Below are positions 4,216 through 19,775 of a stretch of DNA of 52,591 nucleotides, piece after piece (positions within the stretch are counted from its first letter, which is position 1; every line of letters starts with the position of its first letter). Made by a program: the position numbers and the translations under genes. The DNA comes from Alphaproteobacteria bacterium (GTDB taxonomy: Bacteria; Pseudomonadota; Alphaproteobacteria; SMXQ01): positions 1-52,591 of the forward strand of contig JAURLI010000029.1 in the NCBI GenBank assembly GCA_030831315.1, written 5' to 3'. The notes under the pieces are model-generated. The model ran no database searches, was not told where the DNA came from, and saw only the letters and a list, made by a program, of their open reading frames with translations.

Positions 4216-4795
4216 GAACTCTTATCTCCCTGCCTGAATGGGGTTTTGCCGGTTTCGGCAGACCATAAATGATCTTTCCGAAAATCGGGATTTTTGTTGG
4301 GCGCAATTCGGGCCGAATAAGGCGGGAAGGAAATGGCGGCGGAGATCGGCTTCGGACCCAGCCGGGAGCGCGGGCGGGAAGGAAATGGCGGTGCTGCCAG
4401 TCCGGGGCGAACCGCTCTCCGGCCAAATTCCCTGATAACAGGGAAAATACAGGGAATTTTGCCAAAAACGGTGGCTAGCCGCTGGGTTTGGCCCTCATTA
4501 TCCGAAGATTTCAAGAGCTTGTCACTGAAGTCCCTACAAACTTATCAAGGAATTCTAGGCGGACCCATGAGCAGCGTCGGCTTTGTATTCTGCGGTGCCC
4601 TCTTAGTTTAGCGCCGAAGGGCAGACAGTGCCTAATTAGAAAAGCTTTGAAGTCATCTTCACTGCGTAGATGCCATCGCTTTTGTCAAGTTGGCATGTTA
4701 GCTTTCGCGGGTAACGATAACCCATGCGATTAGCTGCTTAATTATTGGTTACGCCGGCCCGATGCCACTTTTACCGAACGTCAGTTAAGCGCAGA
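4216..4795. other. non-coding flank with small repeats, gene-free
   Basis: About 580 bp with no convincing gene; short open frames here show neither domains nor ribosome-binding sites. It holds a duplicated 19-bp block (GGCGGGAAGGAAATGGCGG) near 4321 and 4373 and a nested inverted repeat at 4425-4459 (annotated separately). Composition drops from the GC-rich host level to AT-richer DNA near 4490, which marks the left limit of accessory DNA. Confidence 0.5.
4425..4459. repeat. nested inverted repeat AAATTCCCTG / CAGGGAATTT
   Basis: A perfect 10-bp outer inverted repeat (4425-4434 with 4450-4459) encloses a second CAGGGAA at 4439-4445 that can pair with the same left arm (TTCCCTG-ATAA-CAGGGAA). 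Two alternative hairpins compete for one arm. It lies just before the composition change at the edge of accessory DNA. It could be a dispersed palindromic repeat or a recombination scar; no function is known to me. Confidence 0.55.
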
Positions 4796-4876
4796 TGATA
4801 GAGCCGGTTTTGAACCTACGACTTTCAGGTTATGAACTCGTCCCAGGCTGGTTTCTCCCAACTACGCCAAACTCCA
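4796..4876 (-). pseudogene. degenerate tRNA-Met(CAU)-like relic
   Basis: Read on the minus strand, 81 nt resemble a bacterial initiator-type tRNA: a CCAGCCTGG block, an anticodon-loop-like TTCATAA with anticodon CAU, then GTCGTAGGTTCAAAACC, close to the variable loop and T arm of initiator tRNA. The ends TGGAGTT and GGCTCTA pair as a 7-bp acceptor-like stem only with several G-U pairs. The 3' end reads TCA instead of CCA and the anticodon stem is weak. I take it as a decayed tRNA or tRNA fragment brought by an old integration, not a working gene. Confidence 0.4.
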
Positions 4877-4920
4877 GGGGGTAATTTTTTTGCATGCCTT
4901 CTTGCATTCCGGCTAGCAAT

Positions 4921-7361: not shown

Positions 7362-7855
7362 TCAGCTTCTCCCGGTCCAATTGCTTATCAGGTGAAAACA
7401 GATGCTCGCTGATAGGAACCAACGCAATTATGGTACACGGTCGGATCATCACCACCACATTGCGGTAACGATGATTGGCTGTGGGCGGGTTGTGTAAGCC
7501 CGAGATGAATTAGAGCCGCTGCAATCACCAAAAAAGGCTTCACGTTGCTTACCTCTGGATGAGGGGGCCAGTCTTAGAAAATGTTTGTTTCAAACCAAAA
7601 TTTTTTCAAGTCATTTGTCTGCATTCTCACTACCGGCTGGATATGGGGGTCCCATTTCTTGAAGTGGGGAGTGCCCCGGGGTGGGGGTCAGGATGGCCGG
7701 TTTTTTGGGGGTGGGACGCCCTGAAATATGACAGGGCTAGCGATGCGTCAGACGAAGAGACGCCGATATCGGGTTAATTCTAGTGTGGGGCTGGATGTGG
7801 GGCCTGAACGGGCCCTCTTTTTTAATATATTAAGAACAGATACTTACAAAAAAGG
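7362..7855. other. gene-free host-side flank of the integrated element
   Basis: About 490 bp between the STAND gene and the 3' half of the split tRNA-Ser. An open frame of 72 codons at 7559-7777 has no ribosome-binding site, no domain and low-complexity Gly/Trp composition, so I do not call it a gene. G-rich runs occur at 7645-7715. A short hairpin with a T run lies at 7800-7823. Nothing else is recognisable. Confidence 0.5.
7800..7823 (+). terminator. possible intrinsic terminator
   Basis: GGGCC (7800-7804) pairs with GGCCC (7811-7815) and is followed by TCTTTTTT. The shape fits a short intrinsic terminator for plus-strand transcription, but no plus-strand gene is seen just upstream, so its target is unclear. 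Confidence 0.35.
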
Positions 7856-7913
7856 TGGCGGTGGGGGTGGGATTCGAACCCACGGTACCCTTACGGGCAC
7901 AACGGTTTTCGAG
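7856..7913 (-). pseudogene. 3' half of a split tRNA-Ser(CGA) gene
   Basis: On the minus strand this runs from the anticodon loop (CTCGAAA, anticodon CGA) through the long class-II variable arm (TGCCCGTAAGGGTA), a perfect T arm (GTGGG-TTCGAAT-CCCAC), the acceptor 3' strand CCCCACC, discriminator G and an encoded CCA, then CCTTTTTT. The 5' half is absent here. It lies at 19720-19761, whose acceptor strand GGTGGGG pairs perfectly with CCCCACC. The two halves joined through the shared core give exactly 90 nt. The gene is therefore cut in its anticodon loop by the element between them and cannot make a tRNA in this state. Confidence 0.9.
7904..7913. other. attachment core, left end of the integrated element
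   Basis: The plus strand reads GGTTTTCGAG (CTCGAAAACC on the tRNA strand). The same 10 bp occur at 19720-19729, and flanking bases differ on both sides. This is the crossover core of the tyrosine integrase within the tRNA-Ser anticodon loop. On the tRNA strand it is bracketed by the inverted repeat ACAACGG / CCGTTGT, the usual layout of core-type integrase binding sites. Confidence 0.85.
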
Positions 7914-7960
7914 GGCGCCGTTGTTCATATAGTATATTGTTTATAATAGTATTTTTTTAT

Positions 7961-7981
7961 TAGTAAGTAGGTTAGTAAGTA
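7961..7981. repeat. integrase arm-type direct repeats, left end
   Basis: Two tandem copies of TAGTAAGTA (TAGTAAGTAGG then TTAGTAAGTA) sit ~50 bp inside the left core. The same motif appears twice ~50 bp inside the right core (19647-19670). Short repeats at both ends at the same distance from the core are what arm-binding domains of tyrosine integrases recognise. Confidence 0.6.
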
Positions 7982-8010
7982 TGTTGAGACCGTTTTATAC
8001 CACCAACCGA

Positions 8011-8025
8011 GGTGTCAGTGACACC
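8011..8025. promoter_or_regulatory. palindrome GGTGTCA-G-TGACACC, operator candidate 1
   Basis: Perfect 7+7 inverted repeat with one central base. It shares the TGTCA/TGACA half-sites with four other palindromes in the element (8205, 15873, 17449, 19607). It lies in the gene-free left end and is probably a regulator binding site. Confidence 0.5.
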
Positions 8026-8204
8026 AAAACGCTCTCGCAAAAAAAGTAAAAAAACTCGTCTGCTAAGTTATCGGAAAATATAGCGTGTTTATAAGCCATT
8101 GTTTTATAGTCCAGATTATCCCTATATTTCGGAAGATATTTGGAATATACTGAATTCATAATCGTTATTTGGGGTTTCGTCTAGTATTCGGCTTCGGCGA
8201 AAAA

Positions 8205-8218
8205 TTGTCAGCTGACAA
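8205..8218. promoter_or_regulatory. palindrome TTGTCAGCTGACAA, operator candidate 2
   Basis: Perfect 14-bp palindrome whose sequence is also the centre of the 18-bp palindrome upstream of the integrase. No gene starts nearby; the next start is the HUH protein at 8580. Confidence 0.5.
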
Positions 8219-8448
8219 CTTTTTCCCCCCTTAGCCCAACCCCGCTCCCTCTGCCAAGTCTTCATCCCGACGACTTGCCAGCTGCCAAGCCCAGAACTGG
8301 GTGAGGCGGAACAGCCCCTCTCGTCTCATGTGAGCCAAAAGGGGCAAAGTCACTCCATCGCTAACGGTGCTGTGATTTCGCGGTGCGCCCATGGTGGGCT
8401 CGCCGTTCTTTCTTTTCGCTCTTTGTCATTGTGAAACTTTAGATGTGT

Positions 8449-8486
8449 GGGGCGGAAACTTGTGTTCGAACCAAGTGTTCCGCCCC
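8449..8486. repeat. long hairpin, GGGGCGGAA / TTCCGCCCC
   Basis: A perfect 9-bp outer stem (8449-8457 with 8478-8486) and, after a small internal loop, a 4-bp inner stem (CTTG / CAAG) around a GTTCGAAC loop. No T run follows, so it is not a clear terminator. Position ~95 bp before the HUH-protein gene makes an origin hairpin or an RNA structure in its leader the likeliest uses. Confidence 0.5.
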
Positions 8487-8579
8487 TCTCATCCTTCACT
8501 AAAAAATATTTTTAGTTAGCGCCTAGAACGCATGAGTAACGCTTATAAATAACTTCATAAGGATTTTAGGATTTTGAGT

Positions 8580-9107
8580 ATGGATAGAGCCGAACGCGAA
8601 CTACGAAACGAACTGTCAAACTGGGTATCGTCACGCCTGTCGTGCGACAAGGCTTTCGTGTTCGCCACCCTGACTATGAAGCAGGGTATCAAGCATCCTA
8701 ATGGCTTCTGGGAAAGGCTCGACGAAATCAAGGCGGACCAAAACGCCGAGTGGTTCTGTCGCGCCCTGAACAAAAGAGTGTTCGGAAATAGATACCGCAG
8801 AGGCGAAGAAAAGTTAGAGATTTTCGACGGTGGTCATGCGCCAGATGGTGATTGTCAGCGTTTCCATCGCCACATGGCTATAGAACTTCCTCAGCGCCTA
8901 ACCTTATTTGGGTTCGGAAGTCTCATTAGTAGGCTATGGCGTGCTTCGAAGTTTGGTTATCGGATTATGGATGTTCAGTTGGCGGATAACCCATCCGCCG
9001 TTGTTCAGTATGGGCTGAAGTTAGGTGTCGACGCCTTGAACGTCTCAGCGTTGGCTATTTGTAATGATGGAAACGAGAAAGCAGAGCAGCGCCAACCAAC
9101 GCTGTAA
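8580..9107 (+). CDS. putative HUH-superfamily replication/nicking endonuclease
   Basis: A ~175-residue protein I assign tentatively to small rolling-circle-type Rep endonucleases. Three motifs appear in the family order: FATLTMKQ (28-35, like Rep motif 1 FxTLT), HRH with hydrophobic neighbours (96-98, the HUH metal site) and VVQYGLKLG (catalytic-Tyr candidate Tyr144, with a Lys three residues on). A TTG 6 nt upstream is an alternative start; the ATG at 8580 sits ~9 nt after TAGGA. There is no helicase domain, as in many plasmid, filamentous-phage and satellite Reps. In an integrated element it would nick and replicate the excised circle or start its mobilisation. The hairpin-rich region upstream is the natural place for its target. 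Homology is inferred from motifs only. Confidence 0.55.
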   Translation: MDRAERELRNELSNWVSSRLSCDKAFVFATLTMKQGIKHPNGFWERLDEIKADQNAEWFCRALNKRVFGNRYRRGEEKLEIFDGGHAPDGDCQRFHRHMAIELPQRLTLFGFGSLISRLWRASKFGYRIMDVQLADNPSAVVQYGLKLGVDALNVSALAICNDGNEKAEQRQPTL

Positions 9108-9449
9108 GTCCTTCGCGTTTCGACTACGCCGATACAGGTTAGGCGTGGGTGAATAGGGTAAAGCATACCGACAAGACTGTTTCCAGCCTTGACGGCGCAG
9201 CTGTATCCGCCAGCCAGCCACTCATCCTTCTCTAGTCTCTCAAGCAAAGGTTCGGAGTTCGAGGTGTGTCTGAACTAAATCAAATCCATCTAACCCAATC
9301 TAATCCATCAGGTTACGAGCGTCAGCGAGTTGCGAGCGAAGCGAGCAGAGTTAGAACCCGTTGGGCATTGCCAGACTTCGTCTTCAGCCTCAGCTATGTT
9401 AGCTTGATAAAATAAAGAACCCTTCAGGTGTCATTTCTGCGAGGCAAAA
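9108..9449. other. gene-free spacer in the element
   Basis: About 340 bp. A minus-strand open frame (9005-9247) overlaps the HUH gene antisense and looks like a shadow. Short imperfect repeats of the type ATCYAAYCCA occur at 9275-9310 and GCGAG-type repeats at 9318-9345. I see no promoter or RNA gene that I could support. Confidence 0.4.
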
Positions 9450-10010
9450 ATGAATACGGATGGAATATTCGTACCGATTTTTTTAGCTGGTCTTCTTCTT
9501 TTCTGGATTTTCGACATCAATGGCAGCGAAAAGTCCGCAAACATCTACAAAATCGACTGTCAGGTCGTAAAGAAAAGCGACGGGTCATTTTCGTATGAGG
9601 ATTGTGAGTACCCAAGCAATAGAAGTTATAAGCTGCGCGTCAACCGCGCAGAGGTGGTTGTACAGCCTCAAGGTTTCGTTTTCGGTATTACTGCTCTGCG
9701 AAACTGCTCGATATATGATGAGAAGAACTGGCTTTGCGCTGACAGAAACTACTCTCGCAACCTAATTGGCATGGTTGATGGGGTTGCTTTAGCCAGCAAG
9801 GTTGGCGATAAAAAATGGAACATATCGATTGGTAGATGGACCTACTACTACATAAATATTGCGAACTTCTTCAAATATCAGCCTCGCGATATTCCGAGGT
9901 TTTTTATCGATAACCAGTTTTTCTGTTCTGAAGTTACTCAAGCTAATCAGTCAAACTTTTGGGCAGACCGAAAAGCTGCTTGTTTCAGCCTAGAGGGGTC
10001 GCTGCGTTAG
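9450..10010 (+). CDS. hypothetical membrane-anchored protein
   Basis: A 186-residue protein with one N-terminal hydrophobic segment (about residues 6-22, IFVPIFLAGLLLFWIF) and a polar, Tyr/Asn-rich remainder with several Cys (Cys37, 52, 86, 96), suggesting an exported domain with disulfides. A GAGGC ribosome-binding site precedes the ATG. I do not recognise the family. AT-rich codon use matches the element rather than the host. Confidence 0.65.
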   Translation: MNTDGIFVPIFLAGLLLFWIFDINGSEKSANIYKIDCQVVKKSDGSFSYEDCEYPSNRSYKLRVNRAEVVVQPQGFVFGITALRNCSIYDEKNWLCADRNYSRNLIGMVDGVALASKVGDKKWNISIGRWTYYYINIANFFKYQPRDIPRFFIDNQFFCSEVTQANQSNFWADRKAACFSLEGSLR

Positions 10011-10016
10011 AAAGCA

Positions 10017-10271
10017 CTAAGCACTAGTAGACGGATATTGATACCCAGCCTTTGTGCTGTTCGCTCTTAGCTGCTTGTCGGCGACAGTGCCGCATTGCTC
10101 GCACTTAAACCATGCTCGCGTAAAGTCTACGTCACCTCTACCTTCAGCAACCCAGCGATTAGCCTCAACGTCGCGCCACTGCCGACAACCCGAGCAATAC
10201 AGGCTTAGGGTCATGTCGTTGGGTATCAGGTCAGCAATGGTGCTGATTGTGGTTGGTGTTTTGGTGGGCAT
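10017..10271 (-). CDS. small zinc-ribbon protein
   Basis: An 84-residue protein with two CxxC knuckles, Cys26-Cys29 (YCSGCRQW) and Cys57-Cys60 (KCEQCG), the layout of a zinc ribbon. GGGAA precedes the ATG. It is convergent with the membrane-anchored gene, whose stop lies 6 bp away. Such proteins bind nucleic acid or act as adaptors; nothing here decides which. Confidence 0.65.
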   Translation of the reverse strand: MPTKTPTTISTIADLIPNDMTLSLYCSGCRQWRDVEANRWVAEGRGDVDFTRAWFKCEQCGTVADKQLRANSTKAGYQYPSTSA

Positions 10272-10408
10272 TTCCCATAGCCTCTATGTGTCCAACTACG
10301 TTTTATATTAGGCAGACAAAGATGTTTCGGGGGACCCGAACTCAGCAAAAATCCCCGCGCATATTTTCGGCTCAAAACTAAACAAGCCGCAGGGTTCAGG
10401 CTTTCCGC

Positions 10409-11497
10409 TTACTCCAAGACAAGTTCGTGGCGTGTGTTATCCATCGACCATGACTTGAACTTGCCGAGGAAACTCTGACCCAACAACAGACTGCCTTCTA
10501 CGCCAGCCACACTGCCGCGCACATTGCGTACTGTTTTGTTGCCGACCTTGAGCGAGCGGATGATGAATAGGCGCGAATCTATTGTGCGCCCATCCGCCAG
10601 TCTGTAGCGCTGCTTTCCGATAAAGTCTTTGTCGGTGATGGTTCCAGTGCGCATAAGCGTGATGACGACATCTGCGGGAACCATAACGTCTGATGCGCCG
10701 CTATCTACGGTGAAGTTTAGAGTAAGCGTTCCATTGATGAGAACTGGAACCGCGTATGTGCCGCCTTCTTTGACCAGCTTTACGCGAGTTCCCGCCATGC
10801 TCGGCGGTGGGCTTTTGCCGAAATATGTGCCTGCTACCCAGTAGCCTTGATAGGTTACTCGACCGCTCGCGTCGAACTCCTTACCGAAACCATAGCGCTT
10901 ACCATCGCGCCAATCGCCGACGTACTTCCTACCATCTGCAGATGTATAAGTTCCCTGCCCATTGCGCTTAGCGTCCCGCCACTCGCCGACGTACTTGCTC
11001 CCACTTGTGTATTCGAGAGTTCCCTGCCCATAGAACTTACCATCGTGCCACTCGCCGACGTATTTGGGACCATTTGGTGAGGTATAAGTTCCCTGCCCAT
11101 TGCGCTTACCATCGCGGAACCCGCCGACGTACTTACGTCCATCTGGGAATGTAAGGGTTCCCCGCCCATTGGGCTGATCGTTACGGAACTCGCCGACGTA
11201 CTTCGTACCATCTGCCCATGTATAAGTTCCCCATCCGTTATGCTCACTATCGCGGTGCTCGCCGACGTACTTCTCTCCATTTTTATGTGTAGAAGTTCCC
11301 TGCCCATTAGCCTTACCATCGCGGAACTCGCCGACGTACTTCGTGCCACTTAAGTAGGTGATTTCCCCAAAACAAAGATGCCATCGAACCCATATGCTCG
11401 CTGAACACGGCGGCAGATTTGATTTGGATTGGCTAAATGCGCTTTGGCTTATGCTGATAGCGAGCAGTAAAGCTGCGCCGAAAACAGGAACTCTCAT
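10409..11497 (-). CDS. secreted MORN-repeat protein fused to a retropepsin-like aspartic protease
   Basis: A 362-residue protein. Residues 1-23 (MRVPVFGAALLLAISISQSA..) are a signal peptide, so I start at ATG 11497, preceded by a GGGGGCG stretch, rather than at the longer frame from 11596. Seven MORN units follow at an exact 23-residue period (KYVG or equivalent at 53, 76, 99, 122, 145, 168, 191), each close to YVGEFRDGKANGQGTYT. The C-terminal ~130 residues match the TIGR02281-type clan AA aspartic protease: FTVDSGASDVMVP with active-site DSGA (265-268), and a late LLLGQSFLGKF that fits the family's conserved end. Aspartic proteases of this type work as homodimers. The protein is probably periplasmic or membrane associated. 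Its role in the element is unknown. Confidence 0.8.
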   Translation of the reverse strand: MRVPVFGAALLLAISISQSAFSQSKSNLPPCSASIWVRWHLCFGEITYLSGTKYVGEFRDGKANGQGTSTHKNGEKYVGEHRDSEHNGWGTYTWADGTKYVGEFRNDQPNGRGTLTFPDGRKYVGGFRDGKRNGQGTYTSPNGPKYVGEWHDGKFYGQGTLEYTSGSKYVGEWRDAKRNGQGTYTSADGRKYVGDWRDGKRYGFGKEFDASGRVTYQGYWVAGTYFGKSPPPSMAGTRVKLVKEGGTYAVPVLINGTLTLNFTVDSGASDVMVPADVVITLMRTGTITDKDFIGKQRYRLADGRTIDSRLFIIRSLKVGNKTVRNVRGSVAGVEGSLLLGQSFLGKFKSWSMDNTRHELVLE

Positions 11498-11745
11498 ATC
11501 GCGCCCCCACAAGTAGACACCCAAGTCTACTGCTTCTTGATGAAGCCGCAAGCCGCCGCAAGTAGCCAAACAAAAGCCGCATAAAAAAATGAGCAATCTC
11601 GCAGTTCTGCGCCTTGCCGACGGCTAAATAAACGTGCCTCGCCTTTATCCGTATTTTTCTTTCGGGTGTTACTCCTTCCGTCAGAAATCTTCCAGAAAAC
11701 GGTTATGGGCGAGGTGTCTTCTTCATCTAAAACTGAGGTTCAAAA

Positions 11746-11922
11746 ATGCCAAGTATCATCGAAAATGCCCATGCTTCACTTTCTTTAAGAATGCCTAGAG
11801 AGCTTGATGAGCTAGCTCGACAAGCAGCAAAAAGACAGGGGATGGGTCTTAGCAGCTTCGTTCGCTCCAGTATCATCAAGGAGCTAAACCGCATTTCGGC
11901 AAATGAGTATCAGCCAGCATGA
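11746..11922 (+). CDS. ribbon-helix-helix (CopG/Arc-like) DNA-binding protein
   Basis: A 58-residue protein not in most gene-length cut-offs. ASLSLRMPRELDELAR gives the beta ribbon plus first helix, and GLSSFVRSSIIKEL the second helix with its capping turn, the RHH fold. It overlaps the next gene by ATGA (11919-11922), so translation is probably coupled. RHH proteins bind short palindromes as dimers. This is one candidate to bind the TGTCAG/CTGACA palindromes of the element; it could also be an antitoxin-like autoregulator. Confidence 0.8.
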   Translation: MPSIIENAHASLSLRMPRELDELARQAAKRQGMGLSSFVRSSIIKELNRISANEYQPA

Positions 11923-12125
11923 GCTATCCGCATATGTCGAGCCGTAAAGACATCTATGAGGCTGCTGACGCCATCAAAAAGTCGGGGGAGGTTCGCATGC
12001 TGGAACTCGACCCCGATATCAAATCTGATGTGATGGAATATCGTCTGCGTGAGTTCTTGTCCGATATGAAGATGCGTCTTCGTTCCAAGAAACGGATCCA
12101 GCTGATTGGCATCACGATAAGATGA
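11919..12125 (+). CDS. small hypothetical protein, middle gene of RHH operon
   Basis: A 68-residue charged protein (MSYPHMSSRKDIYEAADAIK..) with no family I recognise. Predicted mostly helical with a basic C-terminus (MRLRSKKRIQ). Its start overlaps the RHH gene stop and its own stop overlaps the next start (ATGA at 12122-12125), so the three genes form a tightly coupled unit. Confidence 0.65.
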   Translation: MSYPHMSSRKDIYEAADAIKKSGEVRMLELDPDIKSDVMEYRLREFLSDMKMRLRSKKRIQLIGITIR

Positions 12126-12388
12126 GAAGCTTCTGCGAGTTCGTCATCGTTGATTGCTCCGAGATGGGGCTGACTTTGAACGAGGCTACCCTACAGTCAC
12201 TCACCTTAGCTGGAGCAGCGGCGTATCTGTTGCGTCAGTCGTCAGTGGTAAAGCAGCGCATCCAGCAAGCCAAAAACGCTCGGTTCATCGAAGACAAGCT
12301 AGACAACTTGGGTGATGCGATTGAGGCTCTATCATCGAAGATGACGGCTGGTTCGGCTATAAGTTGGGCAGTAGCAAAGCGTCTGTAG
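12122..12388 (+). CDS. small hypothetical protein, last gene of RHH operon
   Basis: An 88-residue helical protein; residues 22-38 (LNEATLQSLTLAGAAAY) are moderately hydrophobic, then a charged stretch resembling a coiled coil (SVVKQRIQQAKNARFIEDK). The family is unknown. Coupling to the RHH gene suggests a regulator-partner set such as toxin-antitoxin or a mobilisation accessory, neither demonstrated. Confidence 0.6.
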   Translation: MRSFCEFVIVDCSEMGLTLNEATLQSLTLAGAAAYLLRQSSVVKQRIQQAKNARFIEDKLDNLGDAIEALSSKMTAGSAISWAVAKRL

Positions 12389-12600
12389 GGCTCTCGCTGG
12401 GTACTAAATCGGGTACCACAAATCGCTAGTATGAGGGGCTACAGAAGCCCCCTCGACGCTCTCGAGAGCCTCCAAAGCAAAAAACCTCCTCCGCAGCCAC
12501 CCTAGACGCATCTTTTTTACCATAAGTCTCTGATATATAGAGCTTTTATGCTTATTTTGAGCTATCTTTAGGTATGGATAAGCCAATAAGGAGCTCGGAT
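12389..12600. other. intergenic region with GC hairpin
   Basis: A stem GGGGCT (12435-12440) / AGCCCC (12446-12451) lies 45 bp after the RHH operon and could end its transcript, though no T run follows. The rest, AT-rich (12511-12575), would hold the promoter of the next gene. Confidence 0.35.
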
Positions 12601-12834
12601 ATGTCAGAGGCTGTCGTTTGCTATTTTGACCAACTCACCCACTCCCAGAAAACCAAGGTAGGGCTTGCCCGAGCCGTGCGGGAAGGCAAGAAACTGGGAA
12701 GGAAAACCAATGTCACCCCAGGCACTCGCGCTACCGTGCTGGAACTTCGCAGGCATGGCTACGGTATCAAGAAGATAGCATCGATGTTGCGAATTGGTGT
12801 CGGCACTACCAGTGCCATCGTCAAGGCTGCTTAG
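12601..12834 (+). CDS. stand-alone resolvase-C-terminal-like helix-turn-helix protein
   Basis: A 77-residue protein resembling only the tail of serine resolvases: linker helix KVGLARAVREGKKLGRK and a Hin-type HTH (TRATVLELRRHGYGIKKIASMLRIGVGTTSAIVKA). The catalytic N-domain is absent. The ATG at 12601 has AAGGAG 8 nt upstream, while the upstream ATG at 12574 has no comparable site, so this is a deliberate small gene rather than a random remnant. It could be a regulator of the element or a truncated recombinase. It is convergent with the hypermodification gene, 3 bp apart. Confidence 0.7.
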   Translation: MSEAVVCYFDQLTHSQKTKVGLARAVREGKKLGRKTNVTPGTRATVLELRRHGYGIKKIASMLRIGVGTTSAIVKAA

Positions 12835-12837
12835 AAC

Positions 12838-15800
12838 CTATCTGTGCTCCACTTCCCATTTGCCTTTGTGTTCCCCACTGGTTCGCAGCCGCGCACGGCA
12901 ATATTTCGGATAAAGCGCAGCCATATATTTTGCTGCCAGCTCAATCGTCTTTAGGTTCCGCTGGAACTCCATGCCCCCCGTCACGCCACCACTACCCGAA
13001 TAGTATTTGGTTTTGACCGTGACGTAGTCGAGGCGGACGACGCGCCCATCTTTGATGAAGTGAAGAATGCTGCGCTCGTTGTCTTCCTTATCGCCAATGA
13101 GCAAACCATTTTTTCCGACTGGCACGCCCGAATGAACGATGCTCAGGTCTTTAGAGTGGCGTATGACGACGCCATAAAAACTGCCGATGATGTAATAGTT
13201 CCCAATCGATACTTTTTCCGTGCCGACTTTCCCGAGAAAATCTGCAAGGTCTTCATCGTAATCCCTAATCCCGTCCTTATATTCCGCGGCATCGGGGTTG
13301 GGCTTGATTGCGCCAGAAGCCCAGCCAGCGTTGCCTACAGCGTTGATGCCCCAGAGATAAGCGTTGCTCTCCCGCGCCGCGTTGAAGCCGCGATAAATCA
13401 CTTGTTCAAAGAGATTGGTGCTTTCCTTGAACTTACCGCCAGCGAACTCGTCACCACCCAAAACTTTGATGCTTTCTATATCGTCATCCATAAAAACAAC
13501 AGGTGTTCCTTCTTTATAGTAGTGCTCGGCGAAAGTACGCACCTCGCGCACCCCTGGCGTTGCGATGACAAGGTTTTTGTATGGGAGTTCTGCCTCAGCG
13601 ATTGTTTTTTCGTATTCGGCATATTGTTTTTTATCTGCGACGAAAATCGTCACTTTGTGCGGCGGAACTTGATGCCTCGCTAGAGTTTTGAGTGACTTTT
13701 CGACAATCAGCTCGCTTCTATCCTTAGAAGGTATGGCAACTTGCCAGCCTCGGATGTTGAACTTTGGTCGCGGCGACTTTGGTGGATACGCTTGGTCAAA
13801 CTTATGCTTGGAAGCCAAAGCAGTCTTTAGATAGGAAACGACCGAATACCGTGTGCCTGTTGTTTCCGACGCGGTGACGCCGTGAACCTGATTAGAGTTC
13901 GCAACGAACACATCACCATCACCTATCTTGAAGGCGCAACGCCAGCGCGGCAGCACGAAATATCCGCCCCGATATTCACCTTCCTCAAACGCAGTGATTG
14001 TCGTGAGCCCAGCGTTTTCGTCATCGCTGTCTGTATGGTAGCTCATCGTTGGCAAATCATCAGGCGTGTAGCGCTGAATAGACATTGTTGTAAAAACGCT
14101 ATCACCGAGCCTGACGGATTTTGCTATCCAACCCTTTAGATAAGCACTCTGCTTGCGCCAATCATCAAAAGCCAACCGTCGGTAAGCGGCATTGGCGCGT
14201 TCATTGAACGCAGCCCAGAAAGGGCTGTCGTAGCGTTTTTTATCTCGGGCGATATCGCTCAGCTTGATACGATTGCGCCCTTTTTTTGCGGGACTTTTAT
14301 CGTCGCGATACCAACCGACCATTATGCTTGGTATTTGCTTTCCTCTAAAGCGGTCGAACTCACCATCCTTTTTGCGGACCGCCATAGCACGCTTGTGCTT
14401 TTTGACGACGACGTTTTTCGCACCCCGATTTTCTATTTCTGCTGCGATTTCTTCGTCAGTATATGGCGGTGCTGCTGAGATGCGCTGGTCGGACCAGTCG
14501 CTTTTTGCTGAAATGATTTTCGATAACTCGCGGATAGCTTCGTTGCGTTTTTCTTCGGTAAAAACCTTGCGTCTAATGGCGCCGATAATCGGTTTAGCCC
14601 CGATGTCATCGTCATAGGGACCATAGACGATGAAGTCTTCGTTGATTTCGTTCGCGTCGAACAGGTAGTCGAAGTCGCGTTCCGTGGGCGTTTCCCCTTT
14701 ACGCTTTTTATCCGCCGCAATGCCCCTATCAACATCAACATTATAGGTGCGCAGTTCGGCGCGTTTATCACGCAGGGTTTCAACGAGTTCTATCTTGCCA
14801 ACCAGCCCCTTTTTGTTCTTCGGGATTTTTAGTTTGCGAGTAAGCACAGGAATAAGGGTGCTTTTTGCCAACGCAGCTGTGACGCAAGGCGGAATGGCTT
14901 CAGACAATAGCCCATGGAAATCGACGGATGAGCCTATGGTTCCCCATTCCTTGGGAATAGCAAACAAGGCGCACAGTTCAGTGACCGAAAGAATACGGCG
15001 GTTTTTCGGATGAACAACCGCATAACGCGCAGTGTCAGGCACGACATCATTTTCGCCAGCAACGGCAAGGGGCTTTTTGTAGGTGGTTGTTTTCCGTTCC
15101 CGTGTCGTTAGCGTTCTTATTTGCGACTTGGGATTAGCAGCAGGGAGCAAGCCTATCGCAGCGCGTAGGGCATTGTTCTTCGATGTCTGGCTATACCAGA
15201 AGTCTTCATCATCGCGGTTTTTGACTAAACCGCTGGTGGCTTCGGCAAAGGTTCTTGCTTGCCGCGCCCTCGGGAACACATACCGCATGGCTTCATCGGT
15301 TGTGATGCCGTTCGCCTCAGCTATATCGCAGCGCAAAGCTACGATGAGCGTCATGCTCCGTCTAACAGGGCTCCCGTAGTCAGCCGCATCAATGGTGCTG
15401 TAGTTCGCGTAATAGCGGCGGATGGTTTTATTACGCAGGCTGGTAAAGCGCAGGAAGTCGATGAACCCTTCAAACTTCCAGCGGTTCTTGGTGGCGCAGA
15501 TTTCGGGTGGCGCATAGGCAACCACGATTTTAGGAGCCAGCCTTCGGGCAATCCCAAAGAGGTCAAACAGGTTTTCTTCATGCCCCTTGTGCTTTGGCGC
15601 AGCCCCAGTGGCATTTATTTCCAGTATGTCGAGTGCGCCTGAGCCCCTGAGCTTTAGGGCAGCGAGCAACTCATCCATGCCTTTTTGCTTGCGGTTGTCG
15701 AAGCTGACAGCTGGGCTTTCGGCAGCGGCAAGCCCAAGATTTTTAGCCAAGCATTCGCGGGCAAGGGGCTTGGGTTCGATGGCGTAGCGAGGCTCGATAC

Positions 15801-15879
15801 CCTGAGAACTATAGGAAATCAGGTGGGCGCCACACCCAGGATTTATCGCTAACAGGGTATGTTTGAAGCGGGTTGTCAT
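12838..15879 (-). CDS. three-domain DNA hypermodification fusion: degenerate C5-methyltransferase fold, TET/JBP dioxygenase, TET-associated-type glycosyltransferase
   Basis: About 1013 residues from ATG 15879 (a TTG at 15906 would add 9). (1) Residues ~8-340 follow the cytosine-C5 methyltransferase order: motif I-like INPGCG (12-17), motif II Glu in AIEPKP, motif IV-like DILEINATG (84-92) without the catalytic PPC, motif VIII-like DAADYGSPVRRSMTLIV (164-180), motif IX/X-like SVTELCALFAIP and SEAIPP (326-331). Without the Cys it should not methylate and may serve in DNA binding or base flipping. (2) About 550-690 is a 2-oxoglutarate/Fe(II) dioxygenase: YHTDSD (His615, Asp617), GGYFVLP, GDGDVFVANSNQVHG (His666), GTRYSVV (Arg677), closest in pattern to TET/JBP. 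(3) About 705-1013 looks like the TET-associated glycosyltransferase: AIPSKDRSELIVEKSLKTL, then VVFMDDDI with acidic triad 798-800. Likely role: oxidise a base methyl group and glycosylate the hydroxymethyl. Substrate base and sugar are unknown. Confidence 0.75.
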   Translation of the reverse strand: MTTRFKHTLLAINPGCGAHLISYSSQGIEPRYAIEPKPLARECLAKNLGLAAAESPAVSFDNRKQKGMDELLAALKLRGSGALDILEINATGAAPKHKGHEENLFDLFGIARRLAPKIVVAYAPPEICATKNRWKFEGFIDFLRFTSLRNKTIRRYYANYSTIDAADYGSPVRRSMTLIVALRCDIAEANGITTDEAMRYVFPRARQARTFAEATSGLVKNRDDEDFWYSQTSKNNALRAAIGLLPAANPKSQIRTLTTRERKTTTYKKPLAVAGENDVVPDTARYAVVHPKNRRILSVTELCALFAIPKEWGTIGSSVDFHGLLSEAIPPCVTAALAKSTLIPVLTRKLKIPKNKKGLVGKIELVETLRDKRAELRTYNVDVDRGIAADKKRKGETPTERDFDYLFDANEINEDFIVYGPYDDDIGAKPIIGAIRRKVFTEEKRNEAIRELSKIISAKSDWSDQRISAAPPYTDEEIAAEIENRGAKNVVVKKHKRAMAVRKKDGEFDRFRGKQIPSIMVGWYRDDKSPAKKGRNRIKLSDIARDKKRYDSPFWAAFNERANAAYRRLAFDDWRKQSAYLKGWIAKSVRLGDSVFTTMSIQRYTPDDLPTMSYHTDSDDENAGLTTITAFEEGEYRGGYFVLPRWRCAFKIGDGDVFVANSNQVHGVTASETTGTRYSVVSYLKTALASKHKFDQAYPPKSPRPKFNIRGWQVAIPSKDRSELIVEKSLKTLARHQVPPHKVTIFVADKKQYAEYEKTIAEAELPYKNLVIATPGVREVRTFAEHYYKEGTPVVFMDDDIESIKVLGGDEFAGGKFKESTNLFEQVIYRGFNAARESNAYLWGINAVGNAGWASGAIKPNPDAAEYKDGIRDYDEDLADFLGKVGTEKVSIGNYYIIGSFYGVVIRHSKDLSIVHSGVPVGKNGLLIGDKEDNERSILHFIKDGRVVRLDYVTVKTKYYSGSGGVTGGMEFQRNLKTIELAAKYMAALYPKYCRARLRTSGEHKGKWEVEHR

Positions 15880-15886
15880 CTGACAA
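15873..15886. promoter_or_regulatory. palindrome TTGTCA-TC-TGACAA over the fusion-gene start, operator candidate 3
   Basis: Six-base arms with two central bases. It covers the ATG (15877-15879, minus strand) of the hypermodification gene and lies ~80 bp from the divergent gene's start. A bound dimer here would block transcription elongation or initiation of the fusion gene, and the paired RNA would also mask its start codon. Confidence 0.5.
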
Positions 15887-15958
15887 TATTCCGTCTTTTG
15901 CCCCAACCTGAACAGGGGTTAGCATATGGCAAAATCGTATTGGTTCTAGGGGGAAAAC

Positions 15959-16996
15959 ATGGCGAAGTCGAACATAGTCAAAGCCGACAAACTGCTGGCT
16001 GAGATTGTGGAGTTGGTCAAAACCAGCTCCATGTCAGTTTTACAAACTTGCCAGAAGTTCGCGCTGGCTTGGGGTCAGTATAAGAGTGAGGCTTGGAGCA
16101 ATGCTGAGTTCGCTGACTTTGCTCGCAAGTTGTATAAGGCTCGCTGTGCGCCAAACCCAAATGGCAATCTGCTTATTCTAAACGATGAAGGCGCATACGA
16201 CCTCAATGCCAATGCTACTTGGAAATATATGGTTCTGGCGGGCGAAGCCGAAATCTTCCAAGACAAGGATGTAGTCAAAGAACTGCGTGTTCAATCGCCA
16301 CGAACCCTTTACGAAATCGCGCTCTTTGCGAAAGCCAACGAAAAACACGGGAAAAACCCTAAGAGCGAGGTTCTAAAACTTCTGAGGTCAGCGGTTTCGG
16401 AGGCAGACGACGATAAAAACGATATTTGTCTCACGCGTGCCCATGTGAAGGCTGCGCGGGATGCTCTCAATGCAAAAATGTCATCCAGCCAAGCGTCAAC
16501 CCCAGCCAAGGGAAAACCCCGAGTTCAGGGGGGGAAGCGAGAGGCAATCTCGGCATTGTTGGAACGCGAACACCAGAGCAGAAATCTGCTGATGACGCCT
16601 GATGATAAGTTTTTCGATGATGTCGAGAACTCGACGGCTGCTGATTTTGAACAAAGGGGGTTTGGGCGTTTGCTCAGCCCACAGGGTAGCCTTCACATCG
16701 TCGCTCCAGCTGAGCGATTGAGTTCTGCGCTGAAGCTCTACCAGTGGATGGGCAAGGAAAAACCCAACCTGCTTTGTATCGCCGCCAAAGAACCTACAGG
16801 GCGAGTTTTCCCATTAGCTGATGCCCAGCTACTTTTGACGGATAAGAATGTGAGCATCGCCGAAGCAGCCACGGCTGAAGACGCTGGTGATGCGGTAGAG
16901 GTTGCTCAAGCCCTCGTAAAAGACGAGGGCGGCGAGAACCTTCACCTGTTCGGCGATGAGGAAGCTGACGGCTGGGTGACCTGCGAAGGCGAATAA
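15959..16996 (+). CDS. hypothetical protein divergent from the hypermodification gene
   Basis: A 345-residue, acidic, mainly helical soluble protein I cannot assign. Residues 1-180 are helix-rich and charged, followed by a flexible Ser/Pro/Gly stretch near 181-200 (SSSQASTPAKGKPRVQGGKR), then a mixed domain (~201-320) and an acidic tail. AGGGGGAAA precedes the ATG. It shares the ~80-bp divergent control region with the hypermodification gene, so it may be a partner of that system (targeting, protection or regulation), on position only. Confidence 0.65.
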   Translation: MAKSNIVKADKLLAEIVELVKTSSMSVLQTCQKFALAWGQYKSEAWSNAEFADFARKLYKARCAPNPNGNLLILNDEGAYDLNANATWKYMVLAGEAEIFQDKDVVKELRVQSPRTLYEIALFAKANEKHGKNPKSEVLKLLRSAVSEADDDKNDICLTRAHVKAARDALNAKMSSSQASTPAKGKPRVQGGKREAISALLEREHQSRNLLMTPDDKFFDDVENSTAADFEQRGFGRLLSPQGSLHIVAPAERLSSALKLYQWMGKEKPNLLCIAAKEPTGRVFPLADAQLLLTDKNVSIAEAATAEDAGDAVEVAQALVKDEGGENLHLFGDEEADGWVTCEGE

Positions 16997-17028
16997 ACTG
17001 ATAGAAGTTTGAGTGTTGGAGGTGGTCA

Positions 17029-17388
17029 ATGGCGGAAATGACAAATCGGAAAAGTATTTTGATGTGGAGTTACGCCTATTTTTTATTTGCTTTTATGGAG
17101 GCAGCTTTTTTTAGCGATGACGTAGGCTATAGAGCGGGGGGGTGGTTCGGATTTCTCGTCAGTTTTATTTTTCTTCTTATTTTTTTTATTGCTCCGCTAT
17201 TGCTGGCATTCATTGCTCTCAAAATGACCAAAAAAGAACACGCGGCGCTAAAGGCTCTCTCTTTTACTCGATGGGTGGCATTCCCCGTCGCGCTTCTAAC
17301 CACTTTTGTTTCGGGCTATGGGCATTGTAGATACATTGGCAAAAGCGTTGCTGAGTCTTGTCTCTGCTTGTTTTCGCTTTGGTTCTAG
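17029..17388 (+). CDS. small integral membrane protein
   Basis: A 119-residue protein with about three or four hydrophobic segments (roughly 12-28, 43-68, 82-98, 105-119) and basic loops (KMTKKEHAALK). GGAGGTG lies 8 nt before the ATG. It follows the 345-residue gene by 32 bp on the same strand and may share its transcript. No family is recognised. Confidence 0.65.
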   Translation: MAEMTNRKSILMWSYAYFLFAFMEAAFFSDDVGYRAGGWFGFLVSFIFLLIFFIAPLLLAFIALKMTKKEHAALKALSFTRWVAFPVALLTTFVSGYGHCRYIGKSVAESCLCLFSLWF

Positions 17389-17448
17389 CTCTGAGGATAA
17401 CGCTAGGGTAGGAAACGCCTTCAAGCTATCCGCGCCTGAGCCTAAAAA

Positions 17449-17463
17449 GTGTCAGCCTGACAC
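17449..17463. promoter_or_regulatory. palindrome GTGTCAG-C-CTGACAC, operator candidate 4
   Basis: Perfect 7+7 inverted repeat with one central base, ~130 bp upstream of the serine resolvase start and ~60 bp after the membrane-protein stop. No T run follows, so it is better read as a protein-binding site than a terminator. Confidence 0.5.
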
Positions 17464-17594
17464 CCAAACCGCCCCTTATCTTTTCTCCCCTAAAATCTCC
17501 CGATAAAAAGTGAGGGTTTTCCTAGTCACAGCATCCCCTGTGAGGCATTATTCTAGGGTAAAACCTAAGATAAGTGTCTGATAGGATTGGGAAA

Positions 17595-18170
17595 ATGAGG
17601 GTAGCCATATATGTGCGTGTTTCAACCAGCCAGCAGAACGATGAGGCTCAATACGAGGAACTCGTCGCCCTTTGCCAGCGTTCTGGCTGGGAAGTAGCCG
17701 ACACCTACCGCGAGAAGATTAGCGGAACCAAAGGCTCAGATGAGCGCGAAGAACTGAAGCGGCTTTTGCGGGATGCTCGGCTGCGTCGGTTCAGCAAAGT
17801 AGTGGTTTGGAGTGTCGATAGGCTGGGGCGTTCCATGAAGCACCTCATTACGGTGCTATCCGAACTCAAAGACTTGAACATCGCTGTGTTCAGCTTCAAG
17901 CAAGGAATTGACACCGAAACGGCTATGGGTTCGATGCTGTTTCAGTTCGTCGGCATCTTCGCGGAGTTCGAAAACGAGATGCGCAAGGAACGCCAGCGCA
18001 TAGGTATCGCCAAGGCTAAGGCAAAAGGCGTTTATGGCGGTAGGAAGGCAACGCCAGAGCACAAGTTAGAGGCTATCCGTCAGCTAAGAGCCGACGGCGT
18101 GGCGATACTGAAGATATGCGAGCAGGTAAAGGTGGCGCCTAGAACAGTCTATCGCGCGTTGGGGGTTTAG
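17595..18170 (+). CDS. serine recombinase of the resolvase/invertase type
   Basis: A 191-residue small serine recombinase. The nucleophile is in YVRVSTSQQ (Ser10); SVDRLGRS, the E-helix region (FVGIFAEFENEMRKERQRIG) and a C-terminal Hin-like HTH (EAIRQLRADGVAILKICEQ..RTVYRAL) follow. Length matches Tn3-type resolvases. I start at ATG 17595, 5-12 nt after AGGATTGG; a GTG at 17574 would add 7 residues. In such elements it resolves multimers of the circular form or inverts a segment. No transposase is present. Confidence 0.92.
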   Translation: MRVAIYVRVSTSQQNDEAQYEELVALCQRSGWEVADTYREKISGTKGSDEREELKRLLRDARLRRFSKVVVWSVDRLGRSMKHLITVLSELKDLNIAVFSFKQGIDTETAMGSMLFQFVGIFAEFENEMRKERQRIGIAKAKAKGVYGGRKATPEHKLEAIRQLRADGVAILKICEQVKVAPRTVYRALGV

Positions 18171-18220
18171 CGCCGAAAACTATATTTTTATTGGGTTTTT
18201 GGGCGGAAAATATAACTTGG

Positions 18221-18248
18221 CTTGCCGATTTAGGGCGAAACCTATAAA
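18221..18248 (+). promoter_or_regulatory. promoter of the element-borne tRNA-Ser
   Basis: CTTGCC (18221-18226), a 16-bp spacer and TATAAA (18243-18248), ending 12 bp before the tRNA 5' end. The -35 of CTTG type is common in alphaproteobacteria. Its presence argues that the carried tRNA is transcribed on its own. Confidence 0.55.
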
Positions 18249-18260
18249 AACCGCACGCAC

Positions 18261-18350
18261 GGACAGGTGACCGAGTGGTTTAAGGTGCTGGTCTCGAAAA
18301 CCAGTGTGCCCGTAAGGGTACCGAGAGTTCGAATCTCTCCCTGTCCGCCA
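18261..18350 (+). tRNA. intact tRNA-Ser(CGA) carried by the element
   Basis: A 90-nt class-II tRNA with encoded CCA. Acceptor GGACAGG / CCTGTCC, D arm CCGAGTGG.., anticodon stem CTGGT-CTCGAAA-ACCAG with anticodon CGA (reads UCG), long variable arm TGCCCGTAAGGGTA, T arm GAGAG-TTCGAAT-CTCTC, discriminator G. All stems pair. The variable arm and anticodon loop are identical to those of the split tRNA-Ser(CGA) whose halves flank the element, while acceptor and T stems differ, so it is a related but separate gene, not a copy made on integration. It ends 4 bp from the integrase stop codon. It likely supplies the tRNA lost when the element inserted. It also contains the CTCGAAAACC core and could serve as a further insertion site. 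Confidence 0.95.
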
Positions 18351-18353
18351 AAT

Positions 18354-19571
18354 CTATAACTCTTTCGCCCAGTTCGTTTGTAGCTGCTTAGCAAAGGCTG
18401 GCAGTTGCGGCGACAAGTGCGACAGGTAAAACTTTTCCAGCATATCGACTGAAGTTCTGGCGTTCTTTGCTAAGCCGAACAGGTCAGTTCCATTCGTTTT
18501 GATGATTTGGAAGCACAGCGCGGAGTGGCGCAAGCTGTACATCGTGTGCTTCTGACCAAAACGGTCTTCACTCAATCCCGCCTCATCGCATACAAGGCGG
18601 AACATACGAGAGACACGGTCACTGACGTAACTCTCTCTGTCTTTGATGTCGTTGAAGAACAGGTAATCATTTGGACCGTCATGTCGCTTGAGGATGTTCT
18701 TCCTATAAATGGCGGCAGCAACATCTGTGGTTACACTGTCCAAGAAGCCTTTTGACCTTGCGGTTTTTGGGTTTGGTACAGACAAAAGCAACTGGGGAGG
18801 GCTGATACCACTAACCTCCCGAACATGCTTATTCTGTAGAAACTTCCATTCGCTTGGGCGAAGGAAGCTATGAACCATAAAAACTATGAAGTCATACATT
18901 TCCCCAAAGTCGAACTTAATATCTTCTGGTGGGGCATCTCTCAGTTTTCGGCAAGCAGCCAAAAGCCTACGATACTCAGTAAAATCGAACCAAGGGCGAG
19001 GATGCGAAACACCCCTTATTGAGGGCAACGAAGGCAGATGAGAAATAACACCTTCACGCTCAGCTTCTTTCAGCACCTTGCGGATGAGCACTACATATTT
19101 TTTTAGAGTAGATGCCGATAGCGACCTATCTGAACTAAGCGTGTCGATAAAATCATCTACAATGTTGTAGTCGATTTTGCTGACATGAAGGCTGCCAAGC
19201 GCTGGCAAGACATCTAACCGCAACTTCGCGGCATCTTGCTCGAGCATCCCTTTTGCCAAGTCGCCTCGCCTTATGAGCCGCTGCTGCGAACTCTTTAGCT
19301 TTTCCGCGAACGCACCGAAGGTTTGAGCGCCCTTTAGGCGGAAATCTCGCTTCTCTAATAGGCGCTCCTCGTACCAGTTTTTGGCAAAATCAACCGCGTC
19401 GGCGTATTGCTCACAGCCTGTCGATTTCTTCACACCCGAACTGGGACCGCCCTTCATATAGAGGCGGACTTGCCAGTACTTAGACGCTGGAATGCGGAAT
19501 AGCTTCAGCGCCCTTGGGTACCCCGAGATTTCCCTAACATCGTAGGGGTTCATTCTTGTGGTTTTTGTCAT
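18354..19571 (-). CDS. tyrosine recombinase (integrase) of the element
   Basis: A ~405-residue phage-type integrase. N-terminal arm-binding region (~1-75), SAM-like core-binding domain (~80-185), catalytic domain (~195-405). Active-site candidates: Arg238 (SFLRPSEW), Lys269 (NPKT), Arg348 (YSLRHS), Tyr382 (EKFYLSHLS). The usual first His of HxxR is Tyr345, and the second His/Trp position reads Asn370 (LAKNARTSVDML), changes tolerated in some integrases. The start at ATG 19571 follows GGTGGGGTG; the longer frame to 19643 would run through the palindromic operator. It lies at the right end of the element, reading inward, with att core and arm repeats upstream. It should catalyse insertion in, and excision from, the tRNA-Ser anticodon loop. 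Confidence 0.93.
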   Translation of the reverse strand: MTKTTRMNPYDVREISGYPRALKLFRIPASKYWQVRLYMKGGPSSGVKKSTGCEQYADAVDFAKNWYEERLLEKRDFRLKGAQTFGAFAEKLKSSQQRLIRRGDLAKGMLEQDAAKLRLDVLPALGSLHVSKIDYNIVDDFIDTLSSDRSLSASTLKKYVVLIRKVLKEAEREGVISHLPSLPSIRGVSHPRPWFDFTEYRRLLAACRKLRDAPPEDIKFDFGEMYDFIVFMVHSFLRPSEWKFLQNKHVREVSGISPPQLLLSVPNPKTARSKGFLDSVTTDVAAAIYRKNILKRHDGPNDYLFFNDIKDRESYVSDRVSRMFRLVCDEAGLSEDRFGQKHTMYSLRHSALCFQIIKTNGTDLFGLAKNARTSVDMLEKFYLSHLSPQLPAFAKQLQTNWAKEL

Positions 19572-19606
19572 CACCCCACCCACAAGGCGCCCTGAGCCCT
19601 GCCTCG

Positions 19607-19624
19607 TTTTGTCAGCTGACAAAA
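19607..19624. promoter_or_regulatory. 18-bp palindrome TTTTGTCAGCTGACAAAA, operator candidate 5
   Basis: Perfect 18-bp palindrome 36 bp upstream of the integrase start, the longest of the five. It is placed to control integrase expression, including read-through from the host tRNA promoter at the right junction. Confidence 0.6.
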
Positions 19625-19646
19625 ATATAGCAGCAGCAGGCAAAAA

Positions 19647-19670
19647 AGTAAGTAGGTAGTAAGTAGGTAT
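19647..19670. repeat. integrase arm-type direct repeats, right end
   Basis: AGTAAGTAGGT and AGTAAGTAGGT in tandem (19647-19657 and 19658-19668). They match the pair at 7961-7981 and lie a similar distance inside the core. Together they mark both ends of the element. Confidence 0.6.
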
Positions 19671-19719
19671 GAGAAGATATATTTTTAGCGTTTTTCCGCC
19701 AATTTTTTATCTGGACGGG

Positions 19720-19729
19720 GGTTTTCGAG
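19720..19729. other. attachment core, right end of the integrated element
   Basis: GGTTTTCGAG on the plus strand, identical to 7904-7913. To the right continues the tRNA-Ser 5' half, and to the left element DNA. The distance between the cores gives an element of about 11.8 kb. Confidence 0.85.
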
Positions 19730-19761
19730 ACCGCCCCGATCGACCGCTCCGGCACCCCACC
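19720..19761 (-). pseudogene. 5' half of the split tRNA-Ser(CGA) gene
   Basis: The minus strand from 19761: acceptor GGTGGGG, TG, D arm CCGGAGCGGTCGATCGG, anticodon-stem 5' strand GCGGT, loop CTCGAAA, then ACC, after which the sequence leaves the tRNA into element DNA. The acceptor and anticodon strands pair with the half at 7856-7913. Here the promoter is kept, so a truncated tRNA leader would be transcribed into the element. Confidence 0.9.
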
Positions 19762-19775
19762 GTCGGGGCCTCCCC

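Follow-up and report, generated by a model that had tools for sequence, protein, structure and literature searches.

Background

Gene sets that combine a methyltransferase, a TET enzyme and a glycosyltransferase are common in phages (PMC12730594). A TET/JBP domain fused to a TAGT domain was reported earlier in animal GREB1 (PMC6163654). The characterised TAGT family member, that of T2/T6, acts on cytosine that already carries a glucose and attaches another (PMC13216743), so direct sugar transfer to 5hmC by a TAGT is an extrapolation.

Here, we analysed P0001, a fused protein encoded in a window that comprises a whole 52,591-nt stretch of alphaproteobacterial DNA (contig JAURLI010000029.1). A sequence-only reading had held that the fusion looked new; this does not apply to the joining of TET/JBP and TAGT, which is known in GREB1 (PMC6163654). 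As far as checked, the new features are a bacterial fusion of TET and TAGT whose TET motifs are complete, an attached pseudo-methyltransferase and a chromosomal carrier element, and the literature scope of this check leaves out the original TET/TAGT genomics (2013) and phage TET (2021) studies. Phages split 5mC oxidation and glycosylation between proteins, and a single polypeptide would permit direct handover of 5hmC. P0001 could also serve as a one-protein reagent for sugar-marking 5mC, and it brings DNA hypermodification of the phage type to a chromosomal element without recognised virion genes.

Gene structure and feature coordinates

P0001 is encoded by a single stop-free frame of 1022 codons with a TTG start, and an in-frame ATG lies at codon 10 (position 15879, the upper coordinate of the earlier reading). 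Profiles from phage relatives fell consecutively on the protein, with the methyltransferase at residues ~6-367, TET at ~385-710 and TAGT at ~720-1022; these profiles contain P0001 itself and are used for domain boundaries, not as independent proof. The claim that a methyltransferase fold, a TET/JBP domain and a TAGT share one polypeptide was borne out by Pfam, profile and fold searches for the first two and by Pfam and phage relatives for the TAGT. Matches had been expected for all three parts in a fold comparison; those to C5-methyltransferases (residues 1-380) and TET/JBP (366-712) were found, whereas the evidence for the expected TAGT/GT-A match comes from sequence. The feature coordinates are summarized in Table 1.

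GC is low at the second codon position through most of the frame, a pattern that is least pronounced near residues 241-360. The evidence for the methyltransferase-TET junction is the unbroken frame together with this codon-position pattern. An assembly or frameshift artefact at the TET-TAGT junction was rejected because the same junction occurs, as an eroded fusion, in a second, independent alphaproteobacterial genome (OX638326.1). ARAGORN also reported a tRNA-Arg on the opposite strand within the gene (14521-14613, +), which was taken as probably a false positive.

Table 1. Coordinates of P0001, its domains and motifs, and the carrier element in the window.
Feature	Position	Strand	Evidence or remark
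Host tRNA-Ser(CGA), 3' half	7856..7913	-	Split tRNA
Integrated element, ~11.8 kb, 45-53% GC in ~65% GC context	7914..19730	.	Bounded by 10-bp repeat GGTTTTCGAG
Small ORF, 88 aa	12122..12388	+	39% identical homologue beside OX638326.1 fusion
Small helix-turn-helix gene, convergent with P0001 gene	12574..12834	+	75% identical homologue beside OX638326.1 fusion
P0001, fused protein, 1022 aa: pseudo-C5-methyltransferase, TET/JBP dioxygenase, TAGT	12838..15906	-	Frame, Pfam, profiles
TAGT (GT-A) glycosyltransferase, predicted fold, residues 720-1022	12841..13749	-	Pfam, alignment, phage relatives
D807-D809, DDD (DxD-type) motif	13480..13488	-	Alignment
TET/JBP dioxygenase core, residues 497-705	13792..14418	-	Pfam, alignment, Foldseek
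R686, 2-oxoglutarate-binding Arg	13849..13851	-	Alignment
H675, third iron ligand	13882..13884	-	Alignment
D629, aligned with NgTET1 Asp234 / CMD1 Asp350	14020..14022	-	Alignment; PMC7854593
H624-x-D626, iron ligands	14029..14037	-	Alignment
Extension, residues 385-496, resembles N-terminal part of methyltransferase-linked phage TETs	14419..14754	-	Alignment, profile
Predicted C5-methyltransferase fold, residues 14-356, catalytic motifs lost	14839..15867	-	Pfam, alignment, PADLOC, Foldseek
Motif IV site, residues 97-104 INATGAAP	15595..15618	-	TET-linked phage enzymes: GSPPCPPFS
345-aa gene divergent from P0001 gene	15959..16996	+	No family match
Serine resolvase/invertase	17574..18170	+	
Element's own complete tRNA-Ser(CGA)	18261..18350	+	
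Tyrosine integrase	18354..19643	-	
Host tRNA-Ser(CGA), 5' half	19721..19763	-	Split tRNA

Methyltransferase-like domain

The N-terminal domain appears to adopt a C5-methyltransferase fold. Pfam PF00145 (C5-methylase) matched residues 165-349 with 27.7 bits against a cut-off of 22, and the PADLOC DruM2 model (Druantia cytosine methylase) spans residues 24-350 (E 4.7e-11). The AlphaFold model of residues 1-380 has a mean pLDDT of 54 and is poorest in the TRD region. With this low-confidence model, the top Foldseek matches were C5-methyltransferases, 8YF3/CmoX being first (E 1e-11), and further matches included plant MET1/ZMET2, HhaI and DNMT1. When this domain alone was used as query against phages, no match was obtained.

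The catalytic residues are lost. At motif IV, a short loop without Cys (residues 97-108) stands in place of the Pro-Cys; LDIL is followed by E-INATGAAPK in P0001 versus D-GSPPCPPFS in the methyltransferases that neighbour phage TETs, and the catalytic loop is ~19 residues shorter than theirs. The cysteines of the domain lie at positions 25, 52 and 137, with none between 52 and 137 and none at motif IV. In motif VI, ENV has become AYA (AYAPPE) with loss of the Glu; in motif VIII, QKRER (QxRxR) has become VRRSM with loss of the second Arg; and in motif X, Glu336 stands at the position of HhaI Asn304 and CmoX Arg350. By comparison, the Pro-Cys pattern is kept in 97 of the 105 methyltransferase-like frames of related loci, and the two frames longer than 250 aa that lack it both start at a contig edge. 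Judged by these motifs, the domain is probably catalytically degenerate and is best called a pseudo-methyltransferase. The earlier description of P0001 as a three-in-one enzyme is therefore unsupported, since its first domain has neither the catalytic Cys, nor the ENV Glu, nor the second motif-VIII Arg. P0001 reads better as a pseudo-methyltransferase ahead of a predicted oxidise-then-glycosylate enzyme.

The domain does keep G24, G26, E44, D70 and motif IX/X, and the first four suggest that a cofactor-like pocket may persist. The retained GxG, E44, D70 and motif X-like region would suit a self-sufficient writer, whose methyltransferase domain still uses non-canonical chemistry to move a one-carbon unit or another group, as would the best structural neighbour, CmoX, which is homologous to C5-methyltransferases and differs in its cofactor use (PMC12783734). 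However, the missing motif IV cysteine, ENV Glu and second motif-VIII Arg, the shortened loop and Glu336 all count against such chemistry, which we consider very unlikely. Self-sufficient methylation by P0001 was rejected on the motif loss.

TET/JBP and TAGT domains

Pfam PF12851 (Tet_JBP) matched residues 570-694 with 26.3 bits (E 5e-6), below the cut-off of 34.9; this gathering score is a curators' convention and reflects no biological property. Modelled with AlphaFold, residues 366-712 reach a mean pLDDT of 75, and the model's best 25 PDB matches in Foldseek were all of the TET family (CMD1, NgTET1, CcTet and TET2; E 8e-12 to 5e-8). A profile of these TETs against PDB sequences gave TET2 as its top match, although a weak one (E 0.005). 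The agreement between the phage-relative profile (385-710) and the fold search identifies this part as a divergent TET/JBP member.

The complete His-Asp-His-Arg set that the sequence-only reading had claimed is present as H624, D626, H675 and R686. The HxD...H triad and the 2-oxoglutarate Arg thus lie within a double-stranded beta-helix fold of the TET type, according to the alignment and to fold matches that are all TET. Together with the base-stacking Tyr692, these residues are invariant in 165 aligned TETs, save for one gapped row. The position of NgTET1 His297 appears to be Lys694 in P0001, counted from the Arg, and it is unconserved in phage TETs too. In the tree, the P0001 TET fell on a long branch within the phage clade that has adjacent C5-methyltransferases (support 99/93), and a five-residue insertion near residues 614-620 is common to both.

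The TAGT domain narrowly passed Pfam PF20691 over residues 722-815 (27.9 bits versus a cut-off of 27.5). It shares 21-37% identity with phage TAGTs, 37% being that with the Altadena TAGT, and its GT-A fold would follow from the family (PMC13216743). The DDD motif read earlier from the letters is complete, with D807-D809 invariant among six aligned TAGTs, and Pfam and the phage relatives both support the TAGT identity.

Predicted substrate of the oxidation step

We take Asp350 of CMD1, Asn1387 of TET2 and Asp234 of NgTET1 to occupy the HxD+3 position, at which P0001 carries an Asp (D629). These three residues hydrogen-bond N4 of 5mC; the O4 of thymine cannot pair favourably with Asp350 of CMD1, and the D350N variant of CMD1 still does not act on T (PMC7854593). 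When 42 clusters at 80% identity were counted, a neighbouring methyltransferase was found in 13 of the 29 with Asp at HxD+3 and in none of the 13 with Asn, with a p of 0.003 that is indicative only, as clusters at this identity are still related. D629 and the placement in the methyltransferase-linked clade point to 5mC as the predicted substrate of P0001.

Where a phage or plasmid TET carries Asn at HxD+3 (L002, L006, L008 and similar loci), no adjacent C5-methyltransferase was detected, and the substrate of such TETs may differ, thymine being a candidate.

A search of the host genome (assembly 99.2% complete, 89 contigs) yielded no further PF00145 C5-methyltransferase, which leaves either 5mC supplied in trans or thymine as the substrate. 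In the thymine-directed case, the TET domain would make 5-hydroxymethyluracil and the TAGT would glycosylate it into a base-J-like mark, for which JBP and base J are a precedent (PMC12730594). As thymine requires no methyltransferase, this would explain both the dead methyltransferase domain and the missing 5mC makers of the host. Nevertheless, D629 is the cytosine-type residue, even CMD1 D350N did not act on T (PMC7854593), and the nearest TETs form the methyltransferase-linked clade; we regard a thymine-directed enzyme as unlikely. For a 5mC-directed P0001, the dead methyltransferase yields a sharp prediction about where 5mC originates.

Carrier element

The gene lies in an integrated element whose 10-bp boundary repeat, GGTTTTCGAG, sits in the anticodon region of a split tRNA-Ser. 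Rejoining the flanks gave an 89-nt tRNA, for which the ARAGORN anticodon was ambiguous (Ser or Phe); the CGA anticodon was read by eye from the sequence. No virion gene was found among the element ORFs tested with Pfam and PHROGs. The carrier had been described as tRNA-splitting and non-viral, and it does look so, with tRNA-Ser(CGA) halves on either flank.

The 345-aa gene had no family match and no relatives in 288 other genomes, and the element also carries several genes without assigned function. A further element gene (10409-11596, -) encodes MORN repeats and a retropepsin-like aspartyl protease domain. A 177-aa ORF (8574-9107, +) appears by eye rolling-circle Rep-like, with HRH and YGLK motifs, and had no Pfam or PHROGs match. 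Two other alphaproteobacterial genomes (loci L111, L112 and L118) have integrases 56-60% identical to that of the element. Close to the tRNA-bounded element but outside it, in a low-GC stretch at ~4500-7855, a gene at 4921-7233 (-) encodes a 770-aa STAND/NB-ARC-type NTPase, possibly a defence gene or part of a second element.

Occurrence of related proteins

Most phage and viral TETs lie directly beside a C5-methyltransferase or have a TAGT nearby. In the phage, plasmid and viral loci surveyed, no two of the three domains shared a frame; this supports the view that phages keep TET/JBP and glycosyltransferase genes apart. Another fused frame was seen only in an uncultured Alphaproteobacteria MAG (OX638326.1, L105/L108), in which the C-terminal part of a TET is joined to a TAGT with 54% identity to P0001 over residues 653-1012. 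This copy is a truncated remnant without the iron HxD and without the methyltransferase part. An apparent transposase gene lies beside it, and homologues of the window's small helix-turn-helix gene (75% identity) and 88-aa ORF (39%) lie nearby.

Relatives of P0001 were absent from the 40 nearest genomes and from ~400 genomes sampled from the phylum, and one strong relative occurred among 385 genomes sampled from the class; all these collections are samples. Peptide patterns derived from P0001 alone gave no close relatives in genome contigs and viral contigs. The Pfam PF20691 and PF12851 scans, each of ~300 genomes, overlooked the gene of the window itself, which makes their negatives weak evidence.

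The truncated sole other copy beside a transposase gene, the patchy distribution and the lost methyltransferase motifs would also fit an eroding cargo, once a modification cassette of the phage type, that was fused through a deletion and has no current function. This is distinctly unlikely, given that the 1022 codons are stop-free, the TET and TAGT catalytic motifs are all intact, and the loss is limited to the catalytic sites of one domain, as in a pseudoenzyme rather than in random decay.

Proposed function

The explanation that we favour, at about an even chance of being correct, is that P0001 is a DNA hypermodification enzyme of an integrative element. The pseudo-methyltransferase domain would bind DNA and perhaps flip or position the target base, without methylating it. 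The TET domain, as its motifs suggest, would use Fe(II), O2 and 2-oxoglutarate to oxidise the methyl of 5-methylcytosine, giving 5-hydroxymethylcytosine, substrate and order of steps being presumed. The fused TAGT, judging from its family, would put a sugar on the new hydroxyl, possibly before the base is released and oxidised further. The supply of 5mC would be in trans, from the methyltransferase of another host or from a co-resident phage or plasmid, and the modified base would most plausibly guard DNA against restriction. The methyltransferase-TET order of the domains, which is that of the phage genes, was counted for this explanation, as was the eroded relative with its TET-TAGT junction. 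Counted against it were the lack of a known 5mC source in the host cell, the second-sugar chemistry of the characterised TAGT, the low-confidence methyltransferase-fold model and Lys694 at the NgTET1 His297 position. With no other C5-methyltransferase detected in the host genome, shielding of the element DNA would need 5mC from outside or a thymine substrate.

It is also conceivable, though rather improbable, that the pseudo-methyltransferase recognises foreign-methylated sites, where TET-TAGT would turn a methyl mark into a sugar mark within one protein. If true, a mobile element would rewrite the restriction-modification signature of another as its own.

An RNA or protein target is extremely unlikely. 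GREB1 is reported to be an O-GlcNAc transferase acting on protein, in work cited in PMC10446492; against this, the near relatives of P0001 all lie in phage DNA-modification neighbourhoods, and a DNA-methyltransferase fold is attached to P0001.

Comparison with described proteins

Of the solved structures, that of CmoX, the DNA carboxymethyltransferase of phage S-B43 (PDB 8YF3), is nearest to the P0001 N-terminal domain in both sequence and fold. CmoX has Cys98 and, for carboxy-SAM, Arg350, whereas P0001 has no such Cys and carries Glu336. A TET-linked phage methyltransferase (L004:3599-4813) is itself related to CmoX (E 6e-76) and, like its relatives (L010-L050), has Leu at the CmoX Arg350 / HhaI Asn304 position.

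The TET/JBP domain of GREB1 is not known to be active. GREB1 resembles P0001 in the fusion of TET/JBP to TAGT, but it is eukaryotic, has an SFII-helicase-like module and lacks a methyltransferase fold (PMC6163654). The OX638326.1 copy shares the TET-TAGT junction and the neighbouring helix-turn-helix gene with P0001; unlike P0001, it is truncated, the iron HxD and the methyltransferase part being missing.

A TET near a TAGT-family gene, as in P0001, occurs in the Arthrobacter phages Altadena/Lilmac1015, the Prescottella plasmid plas1 and the Caulobacter phage Cr30; in all of these, TET and TAGT are separate genes, which in Cr30 lie a few genes apart. The Arthrobacter and Prescottella TETs carry Asn at HxD+3 and have no adjacent C5-methyltransferase, whereas P0001 carries Asp. 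The phage methyltransferase and TET pairs of the Methylophilales phage Melnitz type (MelnitzEXVC044M_5 and _6) differ from P0001 in being two genes, often overlapping, with an intact Pro-Cys methyltransferase and no fused TAGT. Nevertheless, their order is that of P0001, the TET and its N-terminal extension are homologous to P0001 (29% identity over 460-699), and both carry Asp at HxD+3.
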